From the NCBI GenBank assembly GCA_026389655.1, contig JAPLHL010000489.1, forward strand, positions 1-11,534: a DNA stretch of 11,534 bases, in the 5' to 3' direction. Under the pieces are notes generated by a model. That model did not search any database and had not been told where the DNA came from. It was given only the letters and a program-made list of their open reading frames with translations. Within the stretch, counting starts at the first letter, position 1. Each line of letters opens with the position of its first letter. The translations under genes were made by a program, and so were the position numbers. Positions 1,531-11,534 of this stretch are shown here, one piece after another. This DNA comes from Chloroflexota bacterium. Its GTDB lineage: Bacteria > Chloroflexota > Dehalococcoidia > GIF9 > UBA5629.

Positions 1531-3339
1531 GTGAGACTTGCCGATTATGTAGTTCACACACTCGCAGATAAAGGCGTGAAGCATGTTTTCATGATCACCG
1601 GTGGCGGCGCCATGCACCTGAATGATGCTTTTGGCCTTGAACAGCGCATCCAGTATGTCTGTAACCTGCACGAACAAGCCTGTGCTATGGCAGCTGAAGG
1701 GTATGCCCGCACTGCGGAGAAAATGGCTGTCGTGTGCGTCACCTCCGGCCCCGGGGGAACGAACACCCTGAGCGGCGTGCTGGGGCAGTGGATGGATTCG
1801 ATACCGGCGCTGTATATCTCCGGCCAAGTGCGCTTTGAGACAACGATCGCCAGCACTGACCTTCCGCTTCGCCAGTTAGGTGACCAGGAGGCCAACATCG
1901 TTGACATCGTCCGTCCTATTACAAAATATGCGGCCATGGTCACCGACCCACAACTTATACGCTATCACCTGGAGAAGGCCATGCACCTGGCGGTTTCCGG
2001 CAGGCCGGGGCCCGTCTGGCTGGACATACCTCTTAACGTTCAGTCAAGCTCGATCGAAGAGACAAACCTGAAATCGTACGATCCTGAAGAAGACGCCCAC
2101 ACAACCCGTCCGGGTTTAGTCGAAGAGCAGATTAATGAAGTAATAGAACGACTGTCTATGTCCGAACGGCCGGTTATCCTTGCCGGCGCGGGTATAAGGC
2201 TGGCGGGTGCAGCCGATGCTTTCTATCACTTGGCGGAAAGGCTGGGCATCCCTGTACAGGTAGCCTGGGATGCCATCGACCTTTTCCCTTCTGCCCATCC
2301 CTTGTATGCTGGAAGACCAAGTACTATGGGACAGCGCGGCGCCAATTTCATCTTTCAAAATGCCGATTTGCTCCTCAGCCTGGCCTGCCGTTTGAACGTC
2401 CGGCAAATTGGTTATACCTTTCCGGCAGTAGCCAGGGCGGCTTACAAAATATCGGTGGACATTGACCCTGCTGAATTAAAAAAACCAACCATCAAGATTG
2501 ATTTGCCAATCAATGCTGATGTCGGTGAATTTATTCGTACATTGCATATGCGGCTCAGGTCAAGAGAATTACCCCAGAAAACAGCTTGGTTATCATGGTG
2601 CAAGGAACGAACTCAGCGTTACCCGGTGGTATTGCCCGAGTATTACCGGCGCCGAAAGCCGGTAAACCCCTATGTGTTTTGTGATATGCTTTCGGAACGC
2701 CTTGATGCTCAAGATGTGATGGTAAGCTCTAATGGCGCATCTTGCGTTATTCCCATCCAGGTAATGCAAATCAAGCGCGGCCAGCGTCATATTGTTAATT
2801 CAGGTTCTGCAGCCATGGGATACGGCCTCCCGGCAGCAATAGGAGCATGTTTCGCCAATGGCCGAAAGAGGGTCATTTGCTTTGAAGGCGACGGAAGCAT
2901 CCAGATGAATATCCAGGAGCTCGAGACGATCGCTTACCACCGCTTGCCTGTCAAGATATTTCTTTTCAACAACAGCGGTTATCTTTCCGTCCGCACCACG
3001 CAAAACAATTTCTTTGATGGCCACCTGGTGGGGGAAAGCACAAAGAGCGGCGTGGGATTCCCCGATTTTGTAAAGCTGGCGAAGGCCTATGGCATCCCCG
3101 CCTGCCGCATCACAAGTCATAGCCAATTTGAGGAAACAATCGAGCGGGTGCTGGATTCAGACGGCCCTGTTTTATGTGATGTGATCATGGATCCGGGCCA
3201 GCTTTTTTCGCCGCGAACGGCCTCGCAACGGCTTCCCGATGGCCGCATGGTATCCAGCCCGCTGGAGGATATGTTCCCCTTCCTGGAGGAAAGGGAATTC
3301 CTATCCAATATGATCATCCCGCGCTGGAAAGCAGAATGA
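1531..3339 (+). CDS. Thiamine-diphosphate-dependent enzyme, acetolactate synthase-like
   Basis: This is a 602-residue, apparently complete member of the acetolactate synthase/pyruvate oxidase superfamily. The N-terminal pyrimidine-binding domain carries the catalytic glutamate in NLHEQA (Glu48) and the SGPGGTN loop (72-78). A central domain spans about 190-340. The C-terminal diphosphate-binding domain has GDGS at 453-456 and the closing NN at 480-481, the standard TPP/Mg motif. Such enzymes decarboxylate a 2-keto acid, usually pyruvate, and pass the two-carbon unit to an acceptor. In surface polysaccharide clusters the best known example is YerE, which acetylates a CDP-3,6-dideoxy-4-ketosugar during yersiniose synthesis. 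The CDP-sugar genes at the right end of the window make that role plausible. The next genes (SDR, cyclase) allow a cyclitol or ketose acceptor instead. A housekeeping IlvB role is unlikely because no regulatory subunit gene or other ilv gene is nearby. It looks GC-richer than its neighbours. Confidence 0.85.
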   Translation: MRLADYVVHTLADKGVKHVFMITGGGAMHLNDAFGLEQRIQYVCNLHEQACAMAAEGYARTAEKMAVVCVTSGPGGTNTLSGVLGQWMDSIPALYISGQVRFETTIASTDLPLRQLGDQEANIVDIVRPITKYAAMVTDPQLIRYHLEKAMHLAVSGRPGPVWLDIPLNVQSSSIEETNLKSYDPEEDAHTTRPGLVEEQINEVIERLSMSERPVILAGAGIRLAGAADAFYHLAERLGIPVQVAWDAIDLFPSAHPLYAGRPSTMGQRGANFIFQNADLLLSLACRLNVRQIGYTFPAVARAAYKISVDIDPAELKKPTIKIDLPINADVGEFIRTLHMRLRSRELPQKTAWLSWCKERTQRYPVVLPEYYRRRKPVNPYVFCDMLSERLDAQDVMVSSNGASCVIPIQVMQIKRGQRHIVNSGSAAMGYGLPAAIGACFANGRKRVICFEGDGSIQMNIQELETIAYHRLPVKIFLFNNSGYLSVRTTQNNFFDGHLVGESTKSGVGFPDFVKLAKAYGIPACRITSHSQFEETIERVLDSDGPVLCDVIMDPGQLFSPRTASQRLPDGRMVSSPLEDMFPFLEEREFLSNMIIPRWKAE

Positions 3340-3412: not shown

Positions 3413-4078
3413 ATGAGACGAGTGCTTATTACCGGAGGATCGCGTGGCATTGGCAAGGTTATTGCTGAACGATTTCGCCGCGTTGGATATGATGTGATAA
3501 CTCCCACCCATGAGGAATTGGATCTTTCTTCAATTGACTCCATACGCGAATACATGACGCAGAATAAGCATCTAGAAGTCGATGTCTTGATTAACAACGC
3601 CGCCCAAAACAAGGTTAGCATAATCAAAGAGTTATCTATTGAAGAATGGCAGCAGATTCTCACAATTAATCTGACGTCTCCGTTTATTTTGATCCAACAT
3701 GCAACTCGTCACATGATGGTCCATAGATGGGGCAGGATTGTCAACATCAGTTCGTGTTACAGCCTGGTCAGCCGCAGCGGGCGATCTGCGTATAGTGCCT
3801 CTAAAGCAGGGCTGAACGCACTTACCCGCACTGCTGCTCTCGAATACGCGGATTTCAATATTTTAGTCAATGCTGTGTGTCCCGGTTTTATTGATACGGA
3901 AATGACGAGGCAGAATAATACTCCAGGGCAGATATCTGACCTCTGCAAACAAATCCCAGTGCAACGTCTGGGCACACCAGACGAGGTGGCGGATTTTGTT
4001 TTCTATCTGGGTTCTGAGCAGAATACCTACATCACAGGGCAGACACTGATCATTGATGGCGGCTTTATGAGTCGGTAG
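3413..4078 (+). CDS. Classical short-chain dehydrogenase/reductase (SDR)
   Basis: The 221-residue protein has every landmark of a classical NAD(P)-dependent SDR. These are the Rossmann glycine motif TGGSRGIG (7-14), the NNAA motif (61-64), Asn86, the catalytic serine in NISS (113/114), and the YSASK motif (Tyr127, Lys131). The C-terminal IDGG element that closes the fold is also present. It is a little shorter than the usual 240-260 residues but not truncated. An ATG start follows GGAGGTG at 3401-3407 at good spacing. It should interconvert a keto and a hydroxyl group; the exact substrate cannot be read from sequence. Lying directly before a sugar phosphate cyclase, it may reduce a cyclitol ketone; after a YerE-like enzyme it may instead reduce the branched ketosugar. 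It probably shares a transcript with both neighbours, the gap to the next gene being 25 bp. Confidence 0.88.
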   Translation: MRRVLITGGSRGIGKVIAERFRRVGYDVITPTHEELDLSSIDSIREYMTQNKHLEVDVLINNAAQNKVSIIKELSIEEWQQILTINLTSPFILIQHATRHMMVHRWGRIVNISSCYSLVSRSGRSAYSASKAGLNALTRTAALEYADFNILVNAVCPGFIDTEMTRQNNTPGQISDLCKQIPVQRLGTPDEVADFVFYLGSEQNTYITGQTLIIDGGFMSR

Positions 4079-4103
4079 ACGACAAAACGGAGAATAAACA
4101 AAA

Positions 4104-5183
4104 ATGGAATGGCTTCAAATCAAGTCCGGGCAAGGGGACTACAACGTTGACTCCTTTGGTGAACTCAAGGCCTTGGTTCAATCCATTCAGAGAATACAAA
4201 AATCCGTGTTGTTAATTGACCGTAATATCGCAAACTTGTATATGGATGATATGGCCCCGCTTATCAACGGTCTACCCACACTGTTGATTGATGCTATTGA
4301 AGATGAAAAAACAATAACAGGCATCTCACGAGTACTAAACTTTTTCCAGGAAAACGGTTGCATGAAGCAGACCGTTGTGGTGGCTATCGGTGGCGGAATT
4401 ATTCAGGACATTGCGACGTTCACAGCGCATGCTTATTACCGTGGAATAAAATGGGTTTACATCCCAACAACGCTGCTTTCGATGAGTGATAGTTGCATAG
4501 GCGCTAAGTGCGGCATCAACTTGAATGCTTTCAAGAACCAATTAGGTGTCTTCCATTCCCCAGCAAGGGTGCTGATTTGCGTCAAGTTCCTTGATACACT
4601 ATCCGACACGGACATTCGTTCTGGCTATGGCGAAATCTTGAAACTGATGCTAACACAATCCGCAGAACTCTATGACGGCCTAAGGACACACATTGACCAG
4701 TTTGGCTTCAGGAATTCAGAACTTGCCACCTTCATATATCAAAGTTTGAATGTGAAAAAGAGCATAATTGAAGTAGATGAGTATGAAATTGATATGCGAC
4801 GTATCTTAAACTATGGCCACACCTTTGGTCATTCGCTGGAAGCCGTTACGCAACACGAGGTTCCTCACGGACTTGCTGTGGCATGGGGGATTGATGTGGC
4901 AAATTTCATTTCACTTAGGCGTGGCATGTTGAGCGAAGCAGACTTTTCATCCATTCATGATTTCATCGTCCGTCATTTCAATTATCGGATTTCATGCAAG
5001 GTTTCGGCAGCAGATCTGATTCAGGGCGCACGGCGCGACAAGAAGGTGAGCGACGGTAAACTCAACATGGTACTGCTGGAAAAACCTGGTAGCCTGAAGA
5101 TTGTGCCGATTGCGTTTGATGGGTCATTCGAATCGATCATTACTGAATACTTGAGCAATAGTCATGTTGTTTATTGGGATTGA
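4104..5183 (+). CDS. AroB-like sugar phosphate cyclase (3-dehydroquinate synthase superfamily)
   Basis: The 359-residue protein matches the full length of the dehydroquinate synthase family. Visible landmarks are the NAD-binding GGGIIQD (96-102), PTTLLSMSDS (121-130), the DSCIGAKCGIN segment (129-139) where AroB usually has two glycines, and KNQLG (144-148). GYGEILK (174-180) supplies the zinc ligand Glu177, NYGHTFGH (236-243) supplies zinc ligand His239 plus His243, and HG (255-256) supplies the third ligand, His255. RDKK (311-314) is also kept, so the enzyme looks catalytically intact. The superfamily converts phosphorylated 6- or 7-carbon sugars into cyclic products with loss of phosphate: dehydroquinate, 2-deoxy-scyllo-inosose or epi-valiolone isomers. 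A sedoheptulokinase-like gene overlapping its 3' end by 20 bp suggests a ketoheptose phosphate substrate (inference). A second shikimate-pathway AroB is the main alternative. GGAG at 4089-4092 precedes the ATG. Confidence 0.82.
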   Translation: MEWLQIKSGQGDYNVDSFGELKALVQSIQRIQKSVLLIDRNIANLYMDDMAPLINGLPTLLIDAIEDEKTITGISRVLNFFQENGCMKQTVVVAIGGGIIQDIATFTAHAYYRGIKWVYIPTTLLSMSDSCIGAKCGINLNAFKNQLGVFHSPARVLICVKFLDTLSDTDIRSGYGEILKLMLTQSAELYDGLRTHIDQFGFRNSELATFIYQSLNVKKSIIEVDEYEIDMRRILNYGHTFGHSLEAVTQHEVPHGLAVAWGIDVANFISLRRGMLSEADFSSIHDFIVRHFNYRISCKVSAADLIQGARRDKKVSDGKLNMVLLEKPGSLKIVPIAFDGSFESIITEYLSNSHVVYWD

Positions 5184-6454
5184 CCTCGGCGCTTCTTTTA
5201 TCAAAGGTGCAGTACTCGACCTGGATGCGCTATGTTTGAAGCATGTCCATCGTATTCCATTTCCCCAATTTATAACTGGTATCCACCCCCTGCATCGTGA
5301 AGTTGACCCAACAAATATTGTCACAGCAGTCAGACAACTTATTGAGCAATTGCTGCCTCAAGCGCCGAATTGCGCTGGTATAGTAATGTGCGGCCAAATG
5401 CATGGCCTTGTCCTGGCCAATGAGCATGGCGAACAGCTTTCGAACTTTGTTTCCTGGCAAGATCAGCGGGCGCTCATGCCTCATCCTAGTGGAAAAGGCA
5501 CCCATTTTGATGTCCTTGTGCAAAAGGTCACGCAAACTGAGCGCCACAGCTTCCCTCGCTGACTTTGTTGTAGCCAATCTGTGCGGTTCGCCACCTACCA
5601 CCGAGGCCACGAATGCAGCAGCGCACGGTGCCTTCAACCTTGTTTCTCAAGAATGGCATAGAACTGTTCTAGCGAAGTTGGGACAAGATCGATTGAAATG
5701 GCCAGCTCTGCGATACCTTGGTGAGGTTGTTGGGTTTCTCAAGGTCGATTCCACGTCAGTTCCATGTTATACACCTATTGGAGATCAACAATGTGCGCTT
5801 TTGGGCGCCTGCTTAGAAGATGGAGAACTATCACTCAATATTGCAACAGGATCACAAGTCAGCATGATTTGCCCTGAATTGGAATTTGGCAACTACCAGA
5901 CGCGGCCTTTCTTTGATGGCAAATTCATCAAAACAGTTACTCATATTCCTGCGGGCAGATCACTAAATGCTCTAATAAACTTATTGACCGAGTTGGCCCG
6001 CATGCAGGACTGCGAAATCCCGGATTCTTGGGCCTATATCGAGAGCTGCGTAGCAACAAACATACATGGGACTGACTTGAATGTAAATATATCTTTCTTC
6101 AACAGTGCATGTGGTGACCATGGGCAGATTTTAAACATGCGCGAGGAGAATATGACAGTGGGGCATTTGTTCAGGGCAGCCTTCCAATGCATGGCGGATA
6201 ATTACTATATATGCGCCCTACGTTTATCACCCGAACAAGCATGGACAAATTTAGTTTTTTCAGGGGGCCTGGCCCAGAAGCTGGAAGTGCTTCGCGAGGT
6301 TATCCAAAATAGATTTCATGTAGGTTACCGTTTGTCTGTTTCAAAAGAGGATACGCTGCTGGGATTGCTGGTTCTAGCACAATTTTGCAGTAAAACAACT
6401 CAGTCCATTTCGCAGGCTGCAGCAATAATAAGACAAGAAGTAACAGATAATTGA
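5164..6454 (+). pseudogene. FGGY-family sedoheptulokinase-like kinase, frameshifted with apparent internal deletion
   Basis: Two frames together encode one kinase of the FGGY (ASKHA fold) family. The first frame, from ATG 5164 (20-bp overlap with the cyclase), gives the N-terminal phosphate loop IGIDLGASFIKG, then CGQMHG and WQDQR, and ends at TGA 5560-5562. The second frame resumes family sequence from about 5549 with ADFVVANLCG. It continues through NAAAHGAFN, GDQQCALLGA, NIATGSQ and the nucleotide-binding SGGLAQK to TGA 6454. Motif order and spacing recall human SHPK (sedoheptulose to sedoheptulose 7-phosphate). Between WQDQR and ADFVVANLCG there are about 33 residues where SHPK has about 50. 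The glycine-rich segment ending in an FW-containing helix is missing. A deletion of 3n+2 bases at about 5540-5550 would explain both the frame change and the loss. As written, no full-length kinase can be made. Assembly error is the alternative, but the missing segment argues against a simple one-base error. Confidence 0.72.
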
Positions 6455-6473
6455 GCTTTTACATGAGGTTTGC

Positions 6474-6480
6474 AGAGGAG
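6474..6480 (+). promoter_or_regulatory. Ribosome binding site that points to an ATT start for the HAD gene
   Basis: AGAGGAG ends 7 nt before an ATT at 6488. The only canonical in-frame start nearby, TTG at 6470, lies upstream of this site and has no properly spaced site of its own. Confidence 0.5.
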
Positions 6481-6487
6481 ATTAGCG

Positions 6488-7150
6488 ATTTTAGTAGAAA
6501 GCATCTTGTTCGACCTTGATGGTACACTTGTGGATACACGTCCAGGAATCGGATATGCGCTGAGGGAGGCAATAGCGGTTGTTATGCCTCATAAAAAGGT
6601 GGACATCCCGGACTTGCGCAGCATAATCGGTCCCCCTATTCGTGATGTACTCAAGAAGGCCATACCAGATATCGACAATGCCACACTAGACGAACTTGAG
6701 CGGCAATTTCGGTCTACCTACGATAGCATTGGTTGGCAAAAATGCTCAGCCTATGACGGCGTGGTAGACACAATGTCTCGTATTGCTCGGCGAAAAATAA
6801 AATGTTTCGTGGTTACTAACAAGCGTATTCAACCAACACTTAAGATTCTGGAACGGCTTCAGTTGAAAGTCTACTTCGATGAGGTTGTCTCATGGGATTC
6901 TGGCGCCAAGCCTTATGCATCTAAGGTAGAAATGGTGGGTTATGTGATTAATAAGTACCATCTAAAATCAAAAACAATGCTTTTAGTTGGAGATTCAAGC
7001 GAAGAAGCACAGGCGGCTAAGGCCAACGGAGCGAAATTTGCAGCGGTTGCCTATGGCTATGGTAATGTTCATACTCGGAGCGAGTGGCAAAAAGATTACA
7101 TCCTAGATAAGTTCTCTGATCTGTTAAAGATTGTTTCAAGCACCCCGTAG
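6488..7150 (+). CDS. HAD-superfamily phosphatase, phosphoglycolate phosphatase (Gph)-like
   Basis: The protein of about 220 residues has all four HAD motifs: FDLDGT (nucleophile Asp9, acid/base Asp11), VVTNK with Thr110, Lys141 in AKPYASK, and LLVGDSSEE with Asp169. The distal acidic residue is Glu rather than the more common Asp. An alpha-helical C1 cap lies between motifs I and II (about 17-90), as in Gph and beta-phosphoglucomutase. It should hydrolyse a small phosphorylated metabolite; in this locus a sugar, cyclitol or nonulosonate phosphate is likely. The start is uncertain. The Shine-Dalgarno at 6474-6480 fits ATT 6488, which yields MLVESILFDLDGTL, the normal family N-terminus. TTG 6470 would add six residues but has no well-placed ribosome site. 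The gene follows the kinase stop by 33 bp and probably belongs to the same transcript. Confidence 0.8.
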   Translation: MLVESILFDLDGTLVDTRPGIGYALREAIAVVMPHKKVDIPDLRSIIGPPIRDVLKKAIPDIDNATLDELERQFRSTYDSIGWQKCSAYDGVVDTMSRIARRKIKCFVVTNKRIQPTLKILERLQLKVYFDEVVSWDSGAKPYASKVEMVGYVINKYHLKSKTMLLVGDSSEEAQAAKANGAKFAAVAYGYGNVHTRSEWQKDYILDKFSDLLKIVSSTP

Positions 7151-7213
7151 GGTAAGCCTCCGGTTTCATGGCGACTTAACTCTTTTGCTCCAGCAGATCC
7201 TACGTAGAACAAA

Positions 7214-7241
7214 TGTGACGTCCTATTAACGTCCTGTGACG
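7214..7241 (+). repeat. Direct repeat TGTGACG, 21 bp apart, with nested ACGTCCT repeat
   Basis: TGTGACG occurs at 7214-7220 and 7235-7241, and ACGTCCT at 7218-7224 and 7229-7235. A 21-bp period places both heptamers on the same DNA face. The right copy lies just upstream of the -10 at 7264, where an activator contacting polymerase would sit. Regulator binding is inferred. Confidence 0.35.
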
Positions 7242-7260
7242 CGCATATGCCGATCAGATT

Positions 7261-7269
7261 TGATATAAT
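7261..7269 (+). promoter_or_regulatory. Extended -10 promoter, upstream copy
   Basis: TGATATAAT is a perfect extended -10 element (TGn plus TATAAT at 7264-7269). I see no good -35 at 16-18 bp, which is typical of extended -10 or activator-dependent promoters. Transcription would start near 7276 and run into the NeuB-like gene. Confidence 0.5.
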
Positions 7270-7314
7270 AGACACGTAATTCGTCAAGGTTAAGGTTTAT
7301 GTCGCTAATATATG

Positions 7315-7342
7315 TTGACAGTAAGCAATTTAGTGATATAAT
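7315..7342 (+). promoter_or_regulatory. Consensus sigma70-type promoter for the NeuB-like gene
   Basis: A perfect -35 TTGACA (7315-7320) is separated by 16 bp from a perfect -10 TATAAT (7337-7342), which is itself preceded by TGn. The predicted start is near 7349, giving a leader of about 62 nt before the ATG at 7411. It is the strongest promoter I see in the window and splits the plus-strand genes into two transcription units. Confidence 0.75.
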
Positions 7343-7360
7343 CTCTATAAGACTATATCA
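7334..7360. promoter_or_regulatory. 27-bp imperfect palindrome over the -10 and start site (candidate operator)
   Basis: Outer arms TGATATA (7334-7340) and TATATCA (7354-7360) are exact inverted copies. Inner TCT (7342-7344) pairs with AGA (7350-7352). Counting gives 20 of 27 positions symmetric about 7347. The arms are two helical turns apart and cover the -10 and the predicted start, as repressor sites often do. No regulator gene is in the window. Confidence 0.4.
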
Positions 7361-7410
7361 TGCAATTACCTTTCCCAATTTGGACTAATCTGTTATAGGA
7401 GAACAAGCTA

Positions 7411-8490
7411 ATGAATAACGGTTTGTTTGAAGATCTCTTTGTTTTGGAAATGGCCAATAACCATTGGGGAAAAGTTGAACGGGGAATTCGAATCATCGAA
7501 GAGCATGCTCGCATTATCCGGTTCAATAATGTACGCGCAGCGATAAAACTGCAGTTCAGAGATGTCGATACATTTATCCATAAAGATTTCCGAGATCGTC
7601 AAGATATCCGCTATGTCAAGAAAACCCTAGCTACACAGATGTCCGCAGGAGATTTGGCCGTACTCGTCAATACTATCCGAAAAAATGGCTGTATACCGAT
7701 GGCCACCCCCTTTGACGAAAAGTCAGTCGATTTGTGTGTGGATTTGGGCATCCAGATCATGAAAATCAGCAGTTCAGATACCAATGACTGGTTTCTAATC
7801 GAAAAAATGGCCAAAACCAGAAAACCGATGATCGTATCAACTGGTGGTTCTCCCCACAAAGATTTGGCCGATTTGGTCCTATTCTTTGAAAACCGCAACA
7901 TTCCCTTAGCAATCAATCATTGTGTAGCGATCTATCCCTCTGAAGATTCTGAGTTGGAGCTAAACCAGATTGATTTCTTGCGCAACCGCTATCCAAATCA
8001 CGTGATAGGTCTATCAACCCATGAATATCATGATTGGACTACTTCGCTAACAATTGGATATGCAAAAGGTGCTCGAACATTCGAACGTCACATTGATATT
8101 GAGGCTGATAACATTCCCGTTTCTCCCTACTGTTCACTGCCGCACCAGATTGACCAATGGTTCAAGGCTTATAGAAAAGTCAGGGAAATGTGCGGAGGCT
8201 CAGGGGCTCAGCAACGAATTGCGCCCAAGAAAGAAATCGACTATCTCCACACATTGGTCCGAGGCGTTTATGCCAGCCGGGATATGCCTGAGGGGCATGC
8301 ACTAACAGATGATGATGTTTATCTGGCAATTGCCCTCCAGAAAGGTCAAATATCCTGTAGGGAATTCATGCGAGGGGAAGTGTTGCTGAAACCGTGTGCA
8401 AAAGACCAACCGATCTTGATTGACATGATTGACAGCCCTTATGCACATAATGATGAATTGAAGCAACTCATTTACAACCGAGGAATTTAG
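7411..8490 (+). CDS. NeuB-like sialic acid/sugar acid synthase family protein
   Basis: The 359-residue protein has an N-terminal TIM barrel and a C-terminal SAF (antifreeze-like) domain, the normal NeuB architecture. The barrel shows EMANNHWG (13-20), IKLQF (45-49), TPFDEKSVDL (99-108), KISSSD (118-123) and VSTGG (142-146). Metal-binding histidines are recognisable in STHEY (His204) and ERHIDI (His227), matching the two manganese ligands of meningococcal NeuB. The SAF domain starts near 283 (VRGVYASRDMPEG). NeuB enzymes condense phosphoenolpyruvate with a sugar aldehyde to form nonulosonic acids. Here the RPG motif in the SAF domain, whose arginine contacts the N-acetyl group of ManNAc in NeuB, is replaced by hydrophobic residues near 307-309. 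The substrate may therefore lack that group (inference). AGGAGA at 7397-7402 precedes the ATG by 8 nt. The gene has its own strong promoter. Confidence 0.85.
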   Translation: MNNGLFEDLFVLEMANNHWGKVERGIRIIEEHARIIRFNNVRAAIKLQFRDVDTFIHKDFRDRQDIRYVKKTLATQMSAGDLAVLVNTIRKNGCIPMATPFDEKSVDLCVDLGIQIMKISSSDTNDWFLIEKMAKTRKPMIVSTGGSPHKDLADLVLFFENRNIPLAINHCVAIYPSEDSELELNQIDFLRNRYPNHVIGLSTHEYHDWTTSLTIGYAKGARTFERHIDIEADNIPVSPYCSLPHQIDQWFKAYRKVREMCGGSGAQQRIAPKKEIDYLHTLVRGVYASRDMPEGHALTDDDVYLAIALQKGQISCREFMRGEVLLKPCAKDQPILIDMIDSPYAHNDELKQLIYNRGI

Positions 8491-8623
8491 ATTACAGTAA
8501 TCCTTGCAGCACGTTTTATACGGCTGATCGTTGATGACGAAATACTCAGGGGGCCTTCCTGGGAAGCTTCCGTTTCACGTTGACTGAACATGGTGATTGT
8601 TTTCAGATCGTTGGAGGTAAAGC
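8491..8623 (+). other. 133-bp gap with possible nucleotidyltransferase N-terminus remnant
   Basis: Directly after the NeuB-like stop, and in the same frame, GAGGA (8480-8484) is followed after 6 nt by ATT 8491. Thirty codons starting TVILAAR then run to TGA 8581. ILAAR is how many sugar nucleotidyltransferases begin, and another frame at about 8549-8584 reads GGLPGKLPFHVD, recalling the RLPGK motif of the same proteins. Both motifs are short and in different frames, so this may be chance. A cytidylyltransferase after neuB would be normal. The gap also holds a perfect 10-bp palindrome, GGAAGCTTCC, at 8562-8571. I see no terminator with a T-run. Confidence 0.25.
8613..8618 (+). promoter_or_regulatory. 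Ribosome binding site that points to an ATC start for the GT2 gene
   Basis: GGAGGT is a near-perfect Shine-Dalgarno ending 5 nt before ATC 8624. No ATG, GTG or TTG occurs in frame until ATG 8705, which is too far and would delete a conserved motif. Confidence 0.6.
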
Positions 8624-9568
8624 ATCAAACTTATTAGTATTGTTACGGCCTGCTATAACGAAGAGGAAAACGTTGAGGACCTGCATGCTCAGATCGTTCA
8701 GGTCATGTCAGAATTACCGCAATACAGATTCGAGCATATCTATATCGATAACGCATCAACTGACAGGACCGTCCCCATCCTACGCCGCTTGGCGGCGGCG
8801 GACAGGCGCGTGAAGGTAATCCTTAATGCCCGAAACTTCGGGCATATCCGGTCTCCTTATCATGCCCTTCTGCAAGCAACTGGCGATGCAGTAATTTCCA
8901 TAGCTGCGGATTTACAGGACCCACCAAGCCTGATAAAGGAATTCACCAGGAAATGGGAAGAGGGCTTCAAGGTGGTCATGGGGGTAAAGGCCCACAGCCA
9001 GGAAACCTGGCTCTTTTTTATGCTGCGTAAGCTTTATTACCGGGTACTGGGCAGGCTCTCGGAGGTCCGCCTGGTTGAGAACTTCACGGGGTGCGGTTTA
9101 TATGACCAGCAGGTGGTAGAAATACTGCGCAAGATCGACGATCCCTATCCCTATTTCCGCGGCCTGATCGCAGATATCGGCTTTGAAGCCGCTAAGATAG
9201 AGTTTGTACAGCCGGCACGTAAGCGGGGCATCACCAAGAATAACCTTTATACCCTTTACGATATGGCCATGGTGGGTTTCACTAACAATACTAAAATGCC
9301 GCTGAGGTTGGCGACGATGGTTGGGTTTCTCACGGCTGCGATCAGCTTTTTAATTGGGTTATTCTATTTTGTATACAAACTGATCTACTGGCAAAGCTTT
9401 ACGGTTGGTTTAGCGCCACTGGTGGTTGGGCTCTTCTTCTTCGGGGGAATCCAGCTGTTTTTCCTCGGAATCGTTGCGGAATACGTCGGGGCCATTTACA
9501 CACAGGTTCAGCATCGTCCGTTGGTAATTGAGAAGGAGCGGATCAATTTCGGTTCGGAAGATCATTGA
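8624..9568 (+). CDS. GT2 glycosyltransferase, GtrB/DPM1-like (polyprenyl-phosphate sugar transferase)
   Basis: Read from ATC 8624 the protein is 314 residues, the usual GtrB length, and begins MKLISIVTACYNEEENV, a textbook family-2 N-terminus. Further landmarks are DNASTD (42-47), ADLQDPP (95-101, metal/nucleotide aspartates), and RKRG near the end of the catalytic domain. Two hydrophobic helices follow at about 229-252 and 263-285. The fold transfers a sugar from UDP- or GDP-sugar to undecaprenyl phosphate on the cytoplasmic side of the membrane. The next gene is its usual flippase partner, GtrA. A start at ATG 8705 would lose 27 residues including the conserved first strand and CYNEEEN, so it is rejected. 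Either ATC serves as start or the original ATG has been lost by one base change, in which case the gene may be poorly expressed or silent. Confidence 0.83.
   Translation: MKLISIVTACYNEEENVEDLHAQIVQVMSELPQYRFEHIYIDNASTDRTVPILRRLAAADRRVKVILNARNFGHIRSPYHALLQATGDAVISIAADLQDPPSLIKEFTRKWEEGFKVVMGVKAHSQETWLFFMLRKLYYRVLGRLSEVRLVENFTGCGLYDQQVVEILRKIDDPYPYFRGLIADIGFEAAKIEFVQPARKRGITKNNLYTLYDMAMVGFTNNTKMPLRLATMVGFLTAAISFLIGLFYFVYKLIYWQSFTVGLAPLVVGLFFFGGIQLFFLGIVAEYVGAIYTQVQHRPLVIEKERINFGSEDH
9533..9538 (+). promoter_or_regulatory. Ribosome binding site that points to an ATT start for the GtrA gene
   Basis: AAGGAG lies inside the end of the GT2 gene and ends 7 nt before ATT 9546. The TTG at 9528 lies upstream of the site and has no site of its own. 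Confidence 0.5.
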
Positions 9569-9998
9569 CCTTATTCGCAGACTCTGGTCAATTCAGATTC
9601 TTCGTTTCCTGGTGGTGGGAGGAGTCAATACTGCCTTTGGATACACGGTGTTTGCCGTGCTTATTCTCTTGAACCACCACTATAAGATATGTTCACCCGA
9701 AGTGGAACTGGTATTAGCTACCTTGCTCGGCCAGATTTGTGGCATCCTGTTCAATTTCAAAACAACGGGAACTATTGTGTTTAGAAACAAAAACAACCGG
9801 TTGATTTTCCGGTTTTTCGGAGTTTATCTATTTACATACCTGTTGAATTACGGCCTTCTAAGAGTATTCGATTCGTATGATGTCAGCAGGTTAGTTGCCG
9901 GAGCAATCATAATCCTACCTATAGCTTTTATTTCGTTCTTACTGAGCAGACGATTTGTCTTTAATACCTCAGACAAGAACACAAAACGAGTAGCTTAG
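9546..9998 (+). CDS. GtrA-family membrane protein (lipid-linked sugar flippase)
   Basis: The protein is about 150 residues with four hydrophobic helices and the GtrA signature LRFLVVGGVNTAFGY in the first helix. The second carries GQICGILFNF and the fourth ends in LLSRRFVF, where GtrA proteins typically have a basic, aromatic end. GtrA proteins are thought to move undecaprenyl-phosphate-linked sugars across the membrane for glycan decoration, and they are commonly paired with GtrB, as here. The reading frame overlaps the GT2 stop (9566-9568), so translation is probably coupled. Start: ATT 9546 gives MSVRKIIDLIRRL, a normal amphipathic N-terminus, at ideal distance from AAGGAG. TTG 9528 is the canonical alternative and adds six residues. 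No third gtr-type transferase is visible; the membrane protein at the left end could act last. Confidence 0.85.
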   Translation: MSVRKIIDLIRRLWSIQILRFLVVGGVNTAFGYTVFAVLILLNHHYKICSPEVELVLATLLGQICGILFNFKTTGTIVFRNKNNRLIFRFFGVYLFTYLLNYGLLRVFDSYDVSRLVAGAIIILPIAFISFLLSRRFVFNTSDKNTKRVA

Positions 9999-10019: not shown

Positions 10020-11018
10020 CTATTCATTCGAAAGAAAATCCCTGTACCAGGAGATTGTACGGCTCAGTCCCTCATCCAGTGTAACCAGGGGCTCCCAGTT
10101 CAGCATCTTCCGCGCTTTAGACGAACTCAAATATTGCTGCCTGATCTCATTGTCTGCTTCGTTTAGAATCACAGGCTTAAGATTGGAGTCCATCAATTTG
10201 ATAATACGTTCCACAATTTCAAGCACTGATACCGGGGTTTCATTGGAAAAATTGAATGCTTCCCCGGGCAGTTCCGGATTATTTGCCAGTTGCTCTGCCA
10301 GCAGAATGTACGCAGCCGCCCCATCCTCTATGTAGAAATAATCCCGCACATACTGGCCGTCAGACCGAATAATGGGCTGCTTGCCACGCAGTATTGACCT
10401 AATTGTCCCGGGTACTATCCTGTTCCAGTTTAAATCGCCCCCTCCGTAGAAGTTACCGCAACGTGTAATGCCAACCGGCAGTTTATAAGTGGCAAAATAG
10501 CTCTGGGCAATTAAATCAGCGCAGGATTTGCTCACGTCGTAAGGGTGCCTGCCCTGCAAAGGCGTATTCTCATCATATGGCAGTTTATCTTGGTCTCCGT
10601 ATGCCTTGTCTGATGAGGCAACTACAATGGTACTGACCTTGCTGCTGCGCCTGCATGCCTCAAGCAACGACCATGTGCCACCGATATTTGTCTGGAAAGT
10701 TGATATTGGATTGCGATTGGCAATCCCAACTATGGTTTGAGCGGCCACGTGGAAAACCGCCTCAATTTCATACTCACCTAATAATCTTTCCAAGAGTGCT
10801 GAATCGCAAATATCCCCCCGTACTACCTTTACCTGCTCGACAAGATTTGACCGGACCAATTCGCTCTTAGGCACCCAGTCGCGAACCAGGCACACAATAT
10901 CAGCGCCTGAATCAAGCAAGTGCTTGATGAGCCAGCCACCCAGCAAACCGGTACCCCCAGTGACAAGAGTCGGCCGGTCCTGCCAGAATGACGTGTTCCG
11001 TACTACTTTCTTATCCAA
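10020..11018 (-). CDS. rfbG: NAD-dependent sugar nucleotide dehydratase, CDP-glucose 4,6-dehydratase-like
   Basis: The 332-residue extended SDR has the NAD-binding TGGTGLLG near its N-terminus. Its dehydratase-type active site SSDK (about 136-138) and YDVSK (Tyr160, Lys164) replace the plain epimerase pattern. [16 protein letters not shown] and RDYFYIED follow in the substrate domain. The overlapping upstream gene is a glucose-1-phosphate cytidylyltransferase, so the natural substrate is CDP-glucose, giving CDP-4-keto-6-deoxyglucose, the entry to 3,6-dideoxyhexoses and related sugars. The substrate domain resembles generic epimerase/dehydratases as well, so specificity is less certain than the fold. 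Start: TTG 11018 sits 8 nt after AAGGGG (11032-11027, within the cytidylyltransferase gene). GTG 11039 would add seven residues but has no ribosome site. The gene converges on gtrA with about 21 bp between stops and no obvious terminator. Confidence 0.82.
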
Positions 11019-11534
11019 GGCGTCTGCCCCTTGTCCCACAAGTCATTAAGATAACTGTAGTCGCGGTAAGTATCAATGGAGAAGAAGAAGCCATCATGCT
11101 TGTATGCCATCAATTCCCCTTCCCGGGCTAGGCGCTGGAGTGTGCCAAACTCCATGAAACAATCATCCCCTTCCAAGTAGTCAAAGAATTTGCGGTTGAA
11201 CACGAAGAAGCCGGCACTCATCCAGTCATTCATCACGGGTTTCTCCGCGAAATTCAACACGCTTCCTTCATCACCTATTTCGAGGACACCATAACGCGAA
11301 GTCGGGTGAACCGCTGTCACTGTCGCCAAACGACCGTGGCTGTAATGGAATTTCAGTAGCGCATTGATGTCTATATCGGCAACACCGTCACCATACGTTA
11401 GCATGAATGCATCTTCCTTCACGTATTTCTGCACCCTCTTCACGCGCCCGCCTGTCATCGTTTCCAGGCCCGTGTCGGCTAAGGTAACCTGATAATCCTG
11501 TTCTTCGTGTGAACTGTTGTAGTCAATGGCGTGC
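11003..11534 (-). CDS. rfbF: Glucose-1-phosphate cytidylyltransferase (5' partial)
   Basis: The frame is open to the window edge, so about 176 C-terminal residues of an expected 255 or so are visible; the ATG at 11458 is internal. Family landmarks are [18 protein letters not shown] at the start of the visible part and [12 protein letters not shown] (nucleotide/metal site). [27 protein letters not shown] and the C-terminal [16 protein letters not shown] then LNDLW follow. The enzyme makes CDP-glucose from CTP and glucose 1-phosphate in the cytoplasm. The nucleotide-binding GGxGTR loop is expected in the missing N-terminus. Its 3' end overlaps the dehydratase gene and carries that gene's ribosome site, so the pair is translationally coupled. 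The third enzyme of the usual set, CDP-4-keto-6-deoxyglucose 3-dehydratase (RfbH), is not in the window. The SIDTYRD segment differs slightly from the commoner MDTLRD. Confidence 0.87.

Follow-up and report, generated by a model that had tools for sequence, protein, structure and literature searches.

The 11,534-nucleotide contig analyzed here (the window), which belongs to a Chloroflexota genome, raises the question of what is made by a cluster that combines an AroB-superfamily enzyme with a NeuB-like synthase and sugar-nucleotide genes. The first-pass annotation viewed it as a surface-glycan cluster making a carbocyclic or higher-carbon sugar through a sedoheptulose 7-phosphate (S7P) cyclase. 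The glycan cluster, an AroB-family enzyme distinct from AroB and a likely higher-carbon product are retained in our analysis, whereas the S7P-cyclase route is not; the window genes belong together, though probably in another pathway. We propose, with a probability of roughly 0.43, that the cluster supplies a surface glycan with a C-branched higher sugar in CDP-activated form, its chemistry being predicted throughout. The window contains the following features:

1531..3339, + strand: ThDP-dependent enzyme, YerE-like carboligase candidate (PF02775/02776/00205; GDG motif present)
3413..4078, + strand: SDR oxidoreductase, FabG-like (PF13561, 167 bits)
4104..5183, + strand: AroB-superfamily enzyme near NCBIfam TIGR04425, redox phospholyase/cyclase (PF01761, 115 bits; DHQS_C, 105 bits)
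5164..5562, + strand: N-terminal fragment of a disrupted FGGY kinase gene (PF00370, 49 bits; residues 1-127 of the L014 kinase)
5552..6454, + strand: C-terminal fragment of the FGGY kinase, in a different frame whose ORF begins at 5402 (residues 161-449 of the L014 kinase)
6470..7150, + strand: HAD-family phosphatase, phosphoglycolate-phosphatase-like (PF13419, 99 bits)
7315..7342, + strand: promoter-like motif preceding the NeuB-like gene, TTGACA-16-TATAAT (12/12 consensus plus TG extension)
7411..8490, + strand: NeuB-like synthase, candidate PEP-dependent ulosonate synthase (PF03102, 118.9 bits vs gathering score 22.1)
8624..9568, + strand: GT2 glycosyltransferase, PgfS/ArnC-like (PF00535, 69 bits; NCBIfam PgfS, 168 vs cut-off 500 bits)
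9528..9998, + strand: GtrA-like membrane protein (PF04138, 61 bits)
10020..11039, - strand: CDP-glucose 4,6-dehydratase-like protein, RfbG (TIGR02622, 217 bits, cut-off 278)
11003..11534, - strand: glucose-1-phosphate cytidylyltransferase-like protein, RfbF, cut by the contig end (TIGR02623, 174 vs cut-off 300 bits, over model positions 105-252 from piece 11003-11458)

The first-pass annotation had correctly recognized the SDR, the HAD phosphatase, the NeuB-family protein and the AroB-superfamily cyclase, including the intact metal and catalytic residues of the latter. These residues (D129, K135, N145, E177, H239, H243, and H255) are unchanged in 31 of 31 aligned sequences, the window among them, and we take their roles to be those known from dehydroquinate synthase (DHQS). 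On the phylogenetic tree, the window cyclase and 27 relatives (28 family rows) constitute a single clade with support 100/99, which contains none of the 19 AroB rows (five annotated as aroB and 14 labeled by us). The closest neighbors of the family are annotated S7P cyclases and EboD-like proteins, joined weakly (91/57); three annotated S7P cyclases form a clade of their own with the family outside it, and the family is likewise distinct from two 2-deoxy-scyllo-inosose (DOI) synthases. S7P cyclases are represented in the tree by annotated sequences, and one DOI-synthase sequence comes from a solved structure. Residues K218, R232, N236, K313, and K314, which we assume to be DHQS substrate residues, are invariant in 28 of 28 family rows and occur in 19, 19, 19, 18, and 18 of the 19 AroB rows, respectively; residues kept in the family include ones that bind the DAHP carboxylate. 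Where S7P cyclases have M, D, and P (window positions 218, 236, and 243), the family has K in 28, N in 28, and H in 27 of 28 rows (one gap), and where DOI synthase has Gly 232 and Glu 236, it has R and N in all 28; we regard the compared positions as substrate-discriminating among these enzymes. S7P cyclases and DOI synthase thus share the superfamily and the type of chemistry with the window family but differ from it in clade and residues, and the assignment as an S7P cyclase is not upheld, since the family forms its own clade and has DHQS residues at positions 218, 232, 236, 243, and 313, where S7P cyclases differ.

The best-scoring model for the window cyclase is TIGR04425 (AroB-related putative sugar phosphate phospholyase, cyclizing); its score of 357 bits is under the cut-off of 400. 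A cyclase of the same clade from a host relative (L100) scores 439.6 bits, above the cut-off; its cluster, unlike the window, shows no called ThDP gene within the stretch covered. In the host's own phylum, a search of 301 genomes gave TIGR04425 matches at 1e-70 in 54. One of these exceeds the cut-off, and many of the others resemble AroB or AroKB fusions by open-frame length. In the phylum of an acidobacterial carrier, the family was detected at 1e-90 in one of 347 genomes, the carrier itself.

The gene described earlier as sedoheptulokinase-like, and as the cluster's own kinase, is broken in the window contig. An FGGY kinase is split over two frames, with a frame shift at about 5545-5552 and ~33 residues absent between the pieces by comparison with the intact 463-aa L014 kinase; the sequence points to either a pseudogene or a fault of the assembly. 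The reported overlap with the cyclase gene is real, the reading frames sharing 20 bases. The window pieces (xylulokinase, 48 vs 380 bits) and the intact relative alike score below the cut-offs of all kinase models.

The ThDP enzyme that heads the gene set, as well as the flanking GT2/GtrA pair and RfbG/RfbF-like genes, had been overlooked. The best PDB match of this enzyme is 8rph (JanthE, a YerE-like carboligase), with 450 bits versus 265 for an acetolactate synthase, suggesting a YerE-like carboligase candidate. The nearby RfbG- and RfbF-like genes both score below their cut-offs, the latter being partial. YerE-like enzymes add chains derived from 2-keto acids to CDP-4-keto-3,6-dideoxy-glucose, and ErwE prefers 4-hydroxy-2-oxo acids (PMC12247030). 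With a YerE-like enzyme and CDP-sugar genes present, a C-branched CDP-sugar is the preferred reading in place of a free C7-cyclitol. The NeuB-like enzyme has 3g8r as its best PDB match (226 bits, with the C-terminal region also aligned), an entry named only 'probable spore coat protein E'. It shares the NeuB domain with sialic- and pseudaminic-acid synthases (NeuB/PseI) but scores 100 and 107 bits with the respective equivalog models, whose cut-offs are 400 and 340. Its identity to 10 relatives is 56-72%, and two of the 10 are located in clusters without the cyclase.

The genes of the window are recurrently linked and modular. Earlier it was asked whether related genomes ever keep them together; the same genes recur jointly in loci annotated to many phyla, which makes the set more than a chance assembly, although the cyclase motif served to select these loci. 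The carriers are scattered, mostly uncultured bacteria. Among 26 loci chosen by the cyclase's own motif, the ThDP, SDR, and cyclase genes follow in this order in 18, with the SDR gene usually adjoining the cyclase gene; RfbH is present in 11 (two scanned proteins score 728 and 662 vs a cut-off of 423), and HAD relatives in three, every one with kinase and NeuB. NEUB occurs in eight loci, HPCH in 10, and both together in none (Fisher p 0.0095, uncorrected for kinship), the partner having switched at least four times on the cyclase tree; both are absent in the remaining eight, although the genome of L015 does have NEUB. Pairwise distances track those of the cyclase for the kinase (0.97) and SDR (r = 0.85, 20 rows), and less closely for the ThDP enzyme (0.40). 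The kinase, cyclase, and SDR are best read as a co-varying add-on that edits the branch.

Seven mycobacterial regions have a shared part, with RfbF, RfbH, and ThDP genes called in all seven, RfbG in six, and GT2 in four, which is joined to HpcH in five regions and to NeuB in two. NeuB adjoins the ThDP gene in both of the latter, where no kinase is called and no SDR adjoins the ThDP gene, and their genomes give no cyclase match at 1e-80; one of them (L092) has a single weak SDR-model match ~9 kb from the ThDP gene. The SDR-cyclase pair reappears in two host relatives, whose stretches contain HpcH aldolase and CTP_transf_3 genes alongside it and show no called ThDP gene.

In the proposed pathway, RfbF and RfbG, plus RfbH in the relatives, would produce CDP-4-keto-3,6-dideoxyhexose. 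The NeuB-like enzyme would condense PEP with an aldose to a 3-deoxy-2-ulosonate, a step that in relatives may be taken over by the HpcH/HpaI pyruvate aldolase. The YerE-like enzyme would decarboxylate the 2-keto acid and join the acyl chain to the sugar ketone, following the logic of yersiniose and caryophyllose. The FGGY kinase, AroB-like enzyme, and SDR would constitute an accessory branch-editing unit, in which the kinase adds a phosphate, the AroB-like enzyme eliminates it with NAD assistance in DHQS style, and the SDR reduces the ketone left behind; the GT2/GtrA pair would move the sugar via a polyprenol carrier. This model is favored by JanthE being the closest PDB relative, by RfbH in the 11 loci and the mutual exclusivity of NEUB and HPCH, as well as by the mycobacterial module swaps, the distance tracking of cyclase, kinase, and SDR, and the clusters of host relatives in which no ThDP gene was called. 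Points against it are that RfbH has no match in the host genome (89% complete, the contig ending in rfbF), that eight loci have neither NEUB nor HPCH, and that L092 retains the weak SDR match.

For the branch edit, we judge terminal deoxygenation of an open chain marginally likelier than ring closure, since the ThDP step needs the 2-keto group intact. Counting against this, the retained residues that bind the DAHP carboxylate suit a ulosonate phosphate more than they do a simple aldose phosphate, and a ulosonate phosphate should cyclize readily after phosphate loss. The branch of caryophyllose is 1,3,4,5-tetrahydroxyhexyl (PMC5706390). A decarboxylated 3,7-dideoxy-heptulosonate would be expected to give such a branch. 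We considered open-chain deoxygenation as the origin of the caryophyllose methyl and set the idea aside: among the 34 loci of the scan, whose scope perhaps did not extend to the relevant genomes, there is no family cyclase from M. marinum or from genera, Mycobacterium apart, of caryophyllose-type producers. The cyclase may thus not be the maker of the terminal methyl there.

Alternatively, the AroB-like enzyme could act after grafting, the branch ketone taking the part of the DAHP ketone, so that phosphate leaves, an intramolecular aldol reaction closes a carbocycle, and the SDR reduces the ring ketone, giving a cyclitol C-C-bonded to the CDP-sugar. We consider this rather unlikely, given that the SDR-cyclase pair also lies beside HpcH and CTP_transf_3 genes in stretches where no ThDP gene was called and grafting would not be expected, and that cyclization of the ulosonate would destroy the 2-keto acid presumably required by the partner enzymes. 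The more specific claim that an AroB-family enzyme of a YerE-type pathway closes the ring on a chain C-C-grafted to a CDP-3,6-dideoxyhexose is unlikely; if true, the cluster would be the first, as far as the searched literature shows, to define genetically how a C-branched surface sugar with a cyclitol is made, with interchangeable donor cassettes common to many phyla. The ring might instead be formed directly from the NeuB or HpcH product, yielding an acidic, dehydroquinate-like cyclitol on a side branch apart from the ThDP step. The DHQS-type substrate residues, the probably DAHP-like acid made by the partner enzyme, and the looser tracking of the ThDP distances would agree with this improbable route, but NeuB adjoins ThDP in both cyclase-free mycobacterial regions, which makes the ThDP enzyme the most likely consumer of the NeuB product.

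The model of the first-pass annotation, with a kinase supplying S7P, a cyclase turning it into a C7 cyclitol, and NeuB extending the latter, draws on the superfamily of the cyclase, its nearest tree neighbors, the kinase overlap, and an SIS isomerase adjoining in two host relatives (GmhA-like where scanned). We regard it as improbable, since the family is a separate clade devoid of S7P-cyclase residues at the five positions, the window kinase is broken, no model reveals the sugar of either the window or the intact kinase, and NeuB is found in clusters without the cyclase. A shikimate-pathway role might be suspected, as the host genome has chorismate synthase and the window cyclase is its sole PF01761 match (in an assembly 89% complete); the enzyme also resembles AroB in fold and in metal- and substrate-binding positions. 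However, the cyclase differs from AroB in its clade and glycan context, a further PF01761 gene exists in nine of 10 other carriers tested, and in two host relatives (G011 and G036) the family member is joined by another AroB-like match, making it highly improbable that the window enzyme is the host's own dehydroquinate synthase. It seems rather to be a relative of a shikimate-pathway enzyme within a branched surface-sugar cluster.

Among known systems, the YerE-type pathways (yersiniose, erwiniose, caryophyllose, and gastriose) resemble the window-type cluster in having a YerE-like ThDP enzyme close to CDP-glucose, 4,6-dehydratase, and RfbH-type genes, the last of these in relatives of the window, and a 2-keto-acid donor from an aldolase-like enzyme, as predicted for the window cluster. 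The window-type cluster is set apart by donor or branch steps supplemented with an AroB-family enzyme and an SDR, often also with a kinase, and by its occurrence across many uncultured phyla. Searches of open-licence literature found no paper on TIGR04425 or on dehydroquinate synthase with acetolactate synthase in a capsule or cyclitol context, and, judged from listings, nothing on topic for S7P cyclase with lipopolysaccharide or YerE with dehydroquinate synthase; such clusters may already be catalogued in published work, and the earlier label 'undescribed' is therefore unproven. For several unusual higher-carbon surface sugars, the genes are known incompletely or not at all, and the window cluster offers a testable parts list. 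For instance, the bradyrhizose genes were called unknown in a 2016 paper, which then proposed an 11-gene cluster (PMC4743980). A link to this C10 (C7 + C3) sugar was attractive and was rejected: no Bradyrhizobium is named among the 34 loci or among 120 homologues listed for an alphaproteobacterial cyclase (few rows with an organism name), and the fully oxygenated ring, as we reconstruct it with the help of a ring-closure note (PMC9912281), mismatches phosphate-elimination chemistry. The window cluster suggests that YerE-type enzymes obtain their donors from NeuB-like and HpcH-like partners, and that an AroB-family enzyme was recruited for this task as well. Prediction of branched sugars from genomes would benefit, and further chemistry would be brought to enzymes already studied as tertiary-alcohol biocatalysts.

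The contig was not flagged as a contaminant, as its GC content (0.462) and tetranucleotide similarity (0.981) lie inside the ranges of 15 host contigs (0.426-0.515 and 0.960-0.990, respectively). The NeuB-like gene was likely gained horizontally, since the host alone among 60 genomes searched has a match to its protein at 1e-60. The promoter-like site upstream of this gene is one of six found in the whole stretch versus 3.5 expected, a match not implying function. In the GT2 gene, a homologous-looking frame, read by eye, continues upstream of the ATG at 8705.

The window is a complete contig (C488) of a 2.59-Mb assembly that is 89% complete, with the following features.

Left end, + strand: ORF without a Pfam match
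1531-3339, + strand: ThDP-dependent enzyme
Next, + strand: SDR, AroB-superfamily cyclase, FGGY kinase (in two pieces), HAD phosphatase, NeuB-like gene, GT2, GtrA, in this order
7315-7342: promoter-like site with a perfect extended -10 (12/12), upstream of the NeuB-like gene
Minus strand: RfbG-like gene and RfbF-like gene, the latter truncated by the contig end

The genes from ThDP to HAD are tightly spaced (intergenic distances of 73, 25, -20, and 15 bases), and a 260-base gap upstream of the NeuB-like gene holds the promoter-like site, which suggests a separate transcription unit for that gene. The FGGY kinase is broken in the contig, since residues 1-127 and 161-449 of an intact relative are matched in two different frames; at 5545-5552, about 33 residues are lost internally together with a frame shift, which would reflect either a pseudogene or an assembly error.

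Relatives of the cyclase were collected from species-level genomes (34 loci) and viral contigs (one locus), and 26 loci were analysed after nine AroB-like loci (L039-L047) were left out. These contain genes for ThDP (21 loci), SDR (21), the NeuB-like synthase NEUB (8), the candidate aldolase HPCH (10), kinase (9), HAD (3), RfbH (11), RfbG-like proteins (10, by a model that also catches weaker dehydratase relatives), RfbF (7), and GT2 (15), all counts being lower bounds owing to the many truncated loci and to the collapsing of overlapping ORFs. By our own reading, ThDP, SDR, and cyclase share order and strand in 18 of the 26 loci, with HPCH interposed in some. The RfbH identity is firm in the two proteins scanned (728 and 662 bits vs. 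a cut-off of 423), and 9 of the 13 RfbH-model matches listed have the SFYP.H motif. As annotated, the carriers include Troglogloeales, Verrucomicrobia, Methylacidiphilales, Lentisphaerae, Acidobacteria, Planctomycetes, Gemmatimonadetes, Eremiobacterota, Mycobacteriaceae, Bdellovibrionaceae, and further groups, together with a contig of putative viral origin. The set of genes is genuine, recurs, and has a modular make-up. The pathway class, that of YerE-type C-branched CDP-sugars, is already known; an AroB-family add-on to such pathways was not found in the searchable open literature.

The modularity was followed in a sample of 248 genomes of one genus, Mycobacterium, at thresholds of 1e-110 for ThDP and 1e-80 for the cyclase. 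A ThDP orthologue occurs in eight genomes, and the cyclase in six, all within those eight. The seven regions compared have RfbF, RfbH, and ThDP throughout, with RfbG called in six and GT2 in four, where collapsed ORFs may conceal the remaining copies. Five regions continue with HPCH, followed in three by SDR, cyclase, and kinase and in one by cyclase and kinase without a called SDR; in the fifth (genome G362), the cyclase sits at a distance of about 19 kb. The other two continue with NEUB (60% identical to that of the window) and a methyltransferase; neither cyclase nor kinase was called there and no adjoining SDR was found, so that NEUB is independent of the cyclase, whose unit is an add-on. 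One of these NEUB-type regions, L092, has a single weak SDR match about 9 kb away. Distance correlations to the cyclase were 0.97 for kinase (n = 10), 0.85 for SDR (n = 20), 0.62 for NEUB (n = 9), 0.49 for GT2 (n = 15), and 0.40 for ThDP (n = 20), reached by 1, 0, 20, 1, and 0 of 2000 permutations, respectively; shared ancestry raises every r, and the informative part, the contrast among genes, agrees with an add-on unit.

NEUB and HPCH never occur together in the 26 loci (NEUB alone in 8, HPCH alone in 10, neither in 8; Fisher p 0.0095, kinship ignored), and on the cyclase tree, with 19 rows labelled, this state switches at least four times. Pfam matches of HPCH reach 26-37 bits in four proteins (cut-off 25 bits), and a profile of eight HPCH sequences matched one PDB sequence, the 2-keto-3-deoxy sugar aldolase YfaU (E 0.0002), none of the individual stretches passing by itself. 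E113 and D143, likely metal ligands, are invariant in all eight aligned sequences. Modest evidence thus points to an HpcH/HpaI-type aldolase. The NeuB and HpcH/HpaI families both join a C3 unit and an aldehyde into 2-keto-3-deoxy acids, and hence NEUB and HPCH look like alternative donor makers.

According to PMC12247030, YerE-like enzymes move 2-keto-acid-derived chains to CDP-4-keto-3,6-dideoxyglucose, ErwE favours longer donors with functional groups, 4-hydroxy-2-oxo acids for example, and the enzymes given for caryophyllose and gastriose are MMAR_2332 and MygE, respectively; PMC12188165 gives the natural substrate of JanthE as not known. Caryophyllose is described as 3,6-dideoxy-4-C-(1,3,4,5-tetrahydroxyhexyl)-hexose in PMC5706390, where strains mutated in MMAR_2331, 2332, and 2333 build up the precursor and lack terminal caryophyllose; PMC4403928 lists MMAR_2333 as a glycosyltransferase. 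We infer that the caryophyllose branch corresponds to a decarboxylated 3-deoxy-2-ulosonate. The partner-ThDP-GT2 order of the two NEUB mycobacterial regions resembles the numbered series MMAR_2331-2332-2333, where MMAR_2331 would take the place of the partner. Together, the donor chemistry, caryophyllose branch, mutants, and gene order suggest that the NEUB or HPCH product would be passed by the ThDP enzyme to a CDP-sugar; kinase, cyclase, and SDR would edit the chain.

Two host relatives, G011 (19.9-kb stretch) and G036 (10.9-kb contig), carry cyclases (loci L100 and L101) of the same clade as that of the window, the former scoring 439.6 bits in TIGR04425. In both, SDR-cyclase lies beside a gene for an HpcH/HpaI aldolase, which scores 127 bits in either stretch, and is also flanked by genes for 2-hydroxyacid dehydrogenase, SIS isomerase, Gfo/Idh/MocA oxidoreductase, and CTP_transf_3; no ThDP gene was called in either stretch. 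Cyclase and aldolase so keep company even without a called ThDP. The cluster looks like an ulosonic-acid pathway, for which no match to a known one was found. If the CTP_transf_3 protein puts CMP on the ulosonate, the 2-keto group would have to outlast the cyclase step; mainly for this reason, we rank elimination of phosphate from an open chain, followed by reduction, slightly above ring closure as the candidate edit. The first-pass annotation had proposed a sedoheptulose 7-phosphate-type cyclase, an enzyme assignment that is not supported.

The AroB-like proteins of L050 and L087 adjoin TatD hydrolases, presumably in an ebo-type operon, and form their own clade beside the sedoheptulose 7-phosphate cyclases. 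The host itself encodes chorismate synthase; a second PF01761 gene was not found in its 89% complete assembly. The IMG/VR contig filed as viral (L048, 2593-9900) encodes NeuB-ThDP-SDR-cyclase and a weak GtrB-like match (20 bits), and represents either phage auxiliary glycan genes or a misfiled host contig. In the window, the GT2 frame is free of stops from an ATC codon at 8624-8626, which follows a GGAGG at 8613-8617, and by eye resembles a typical GT2 start, KLISIVTACYNEEEN; its earliest ATG/GTG/TTG is at 8705.
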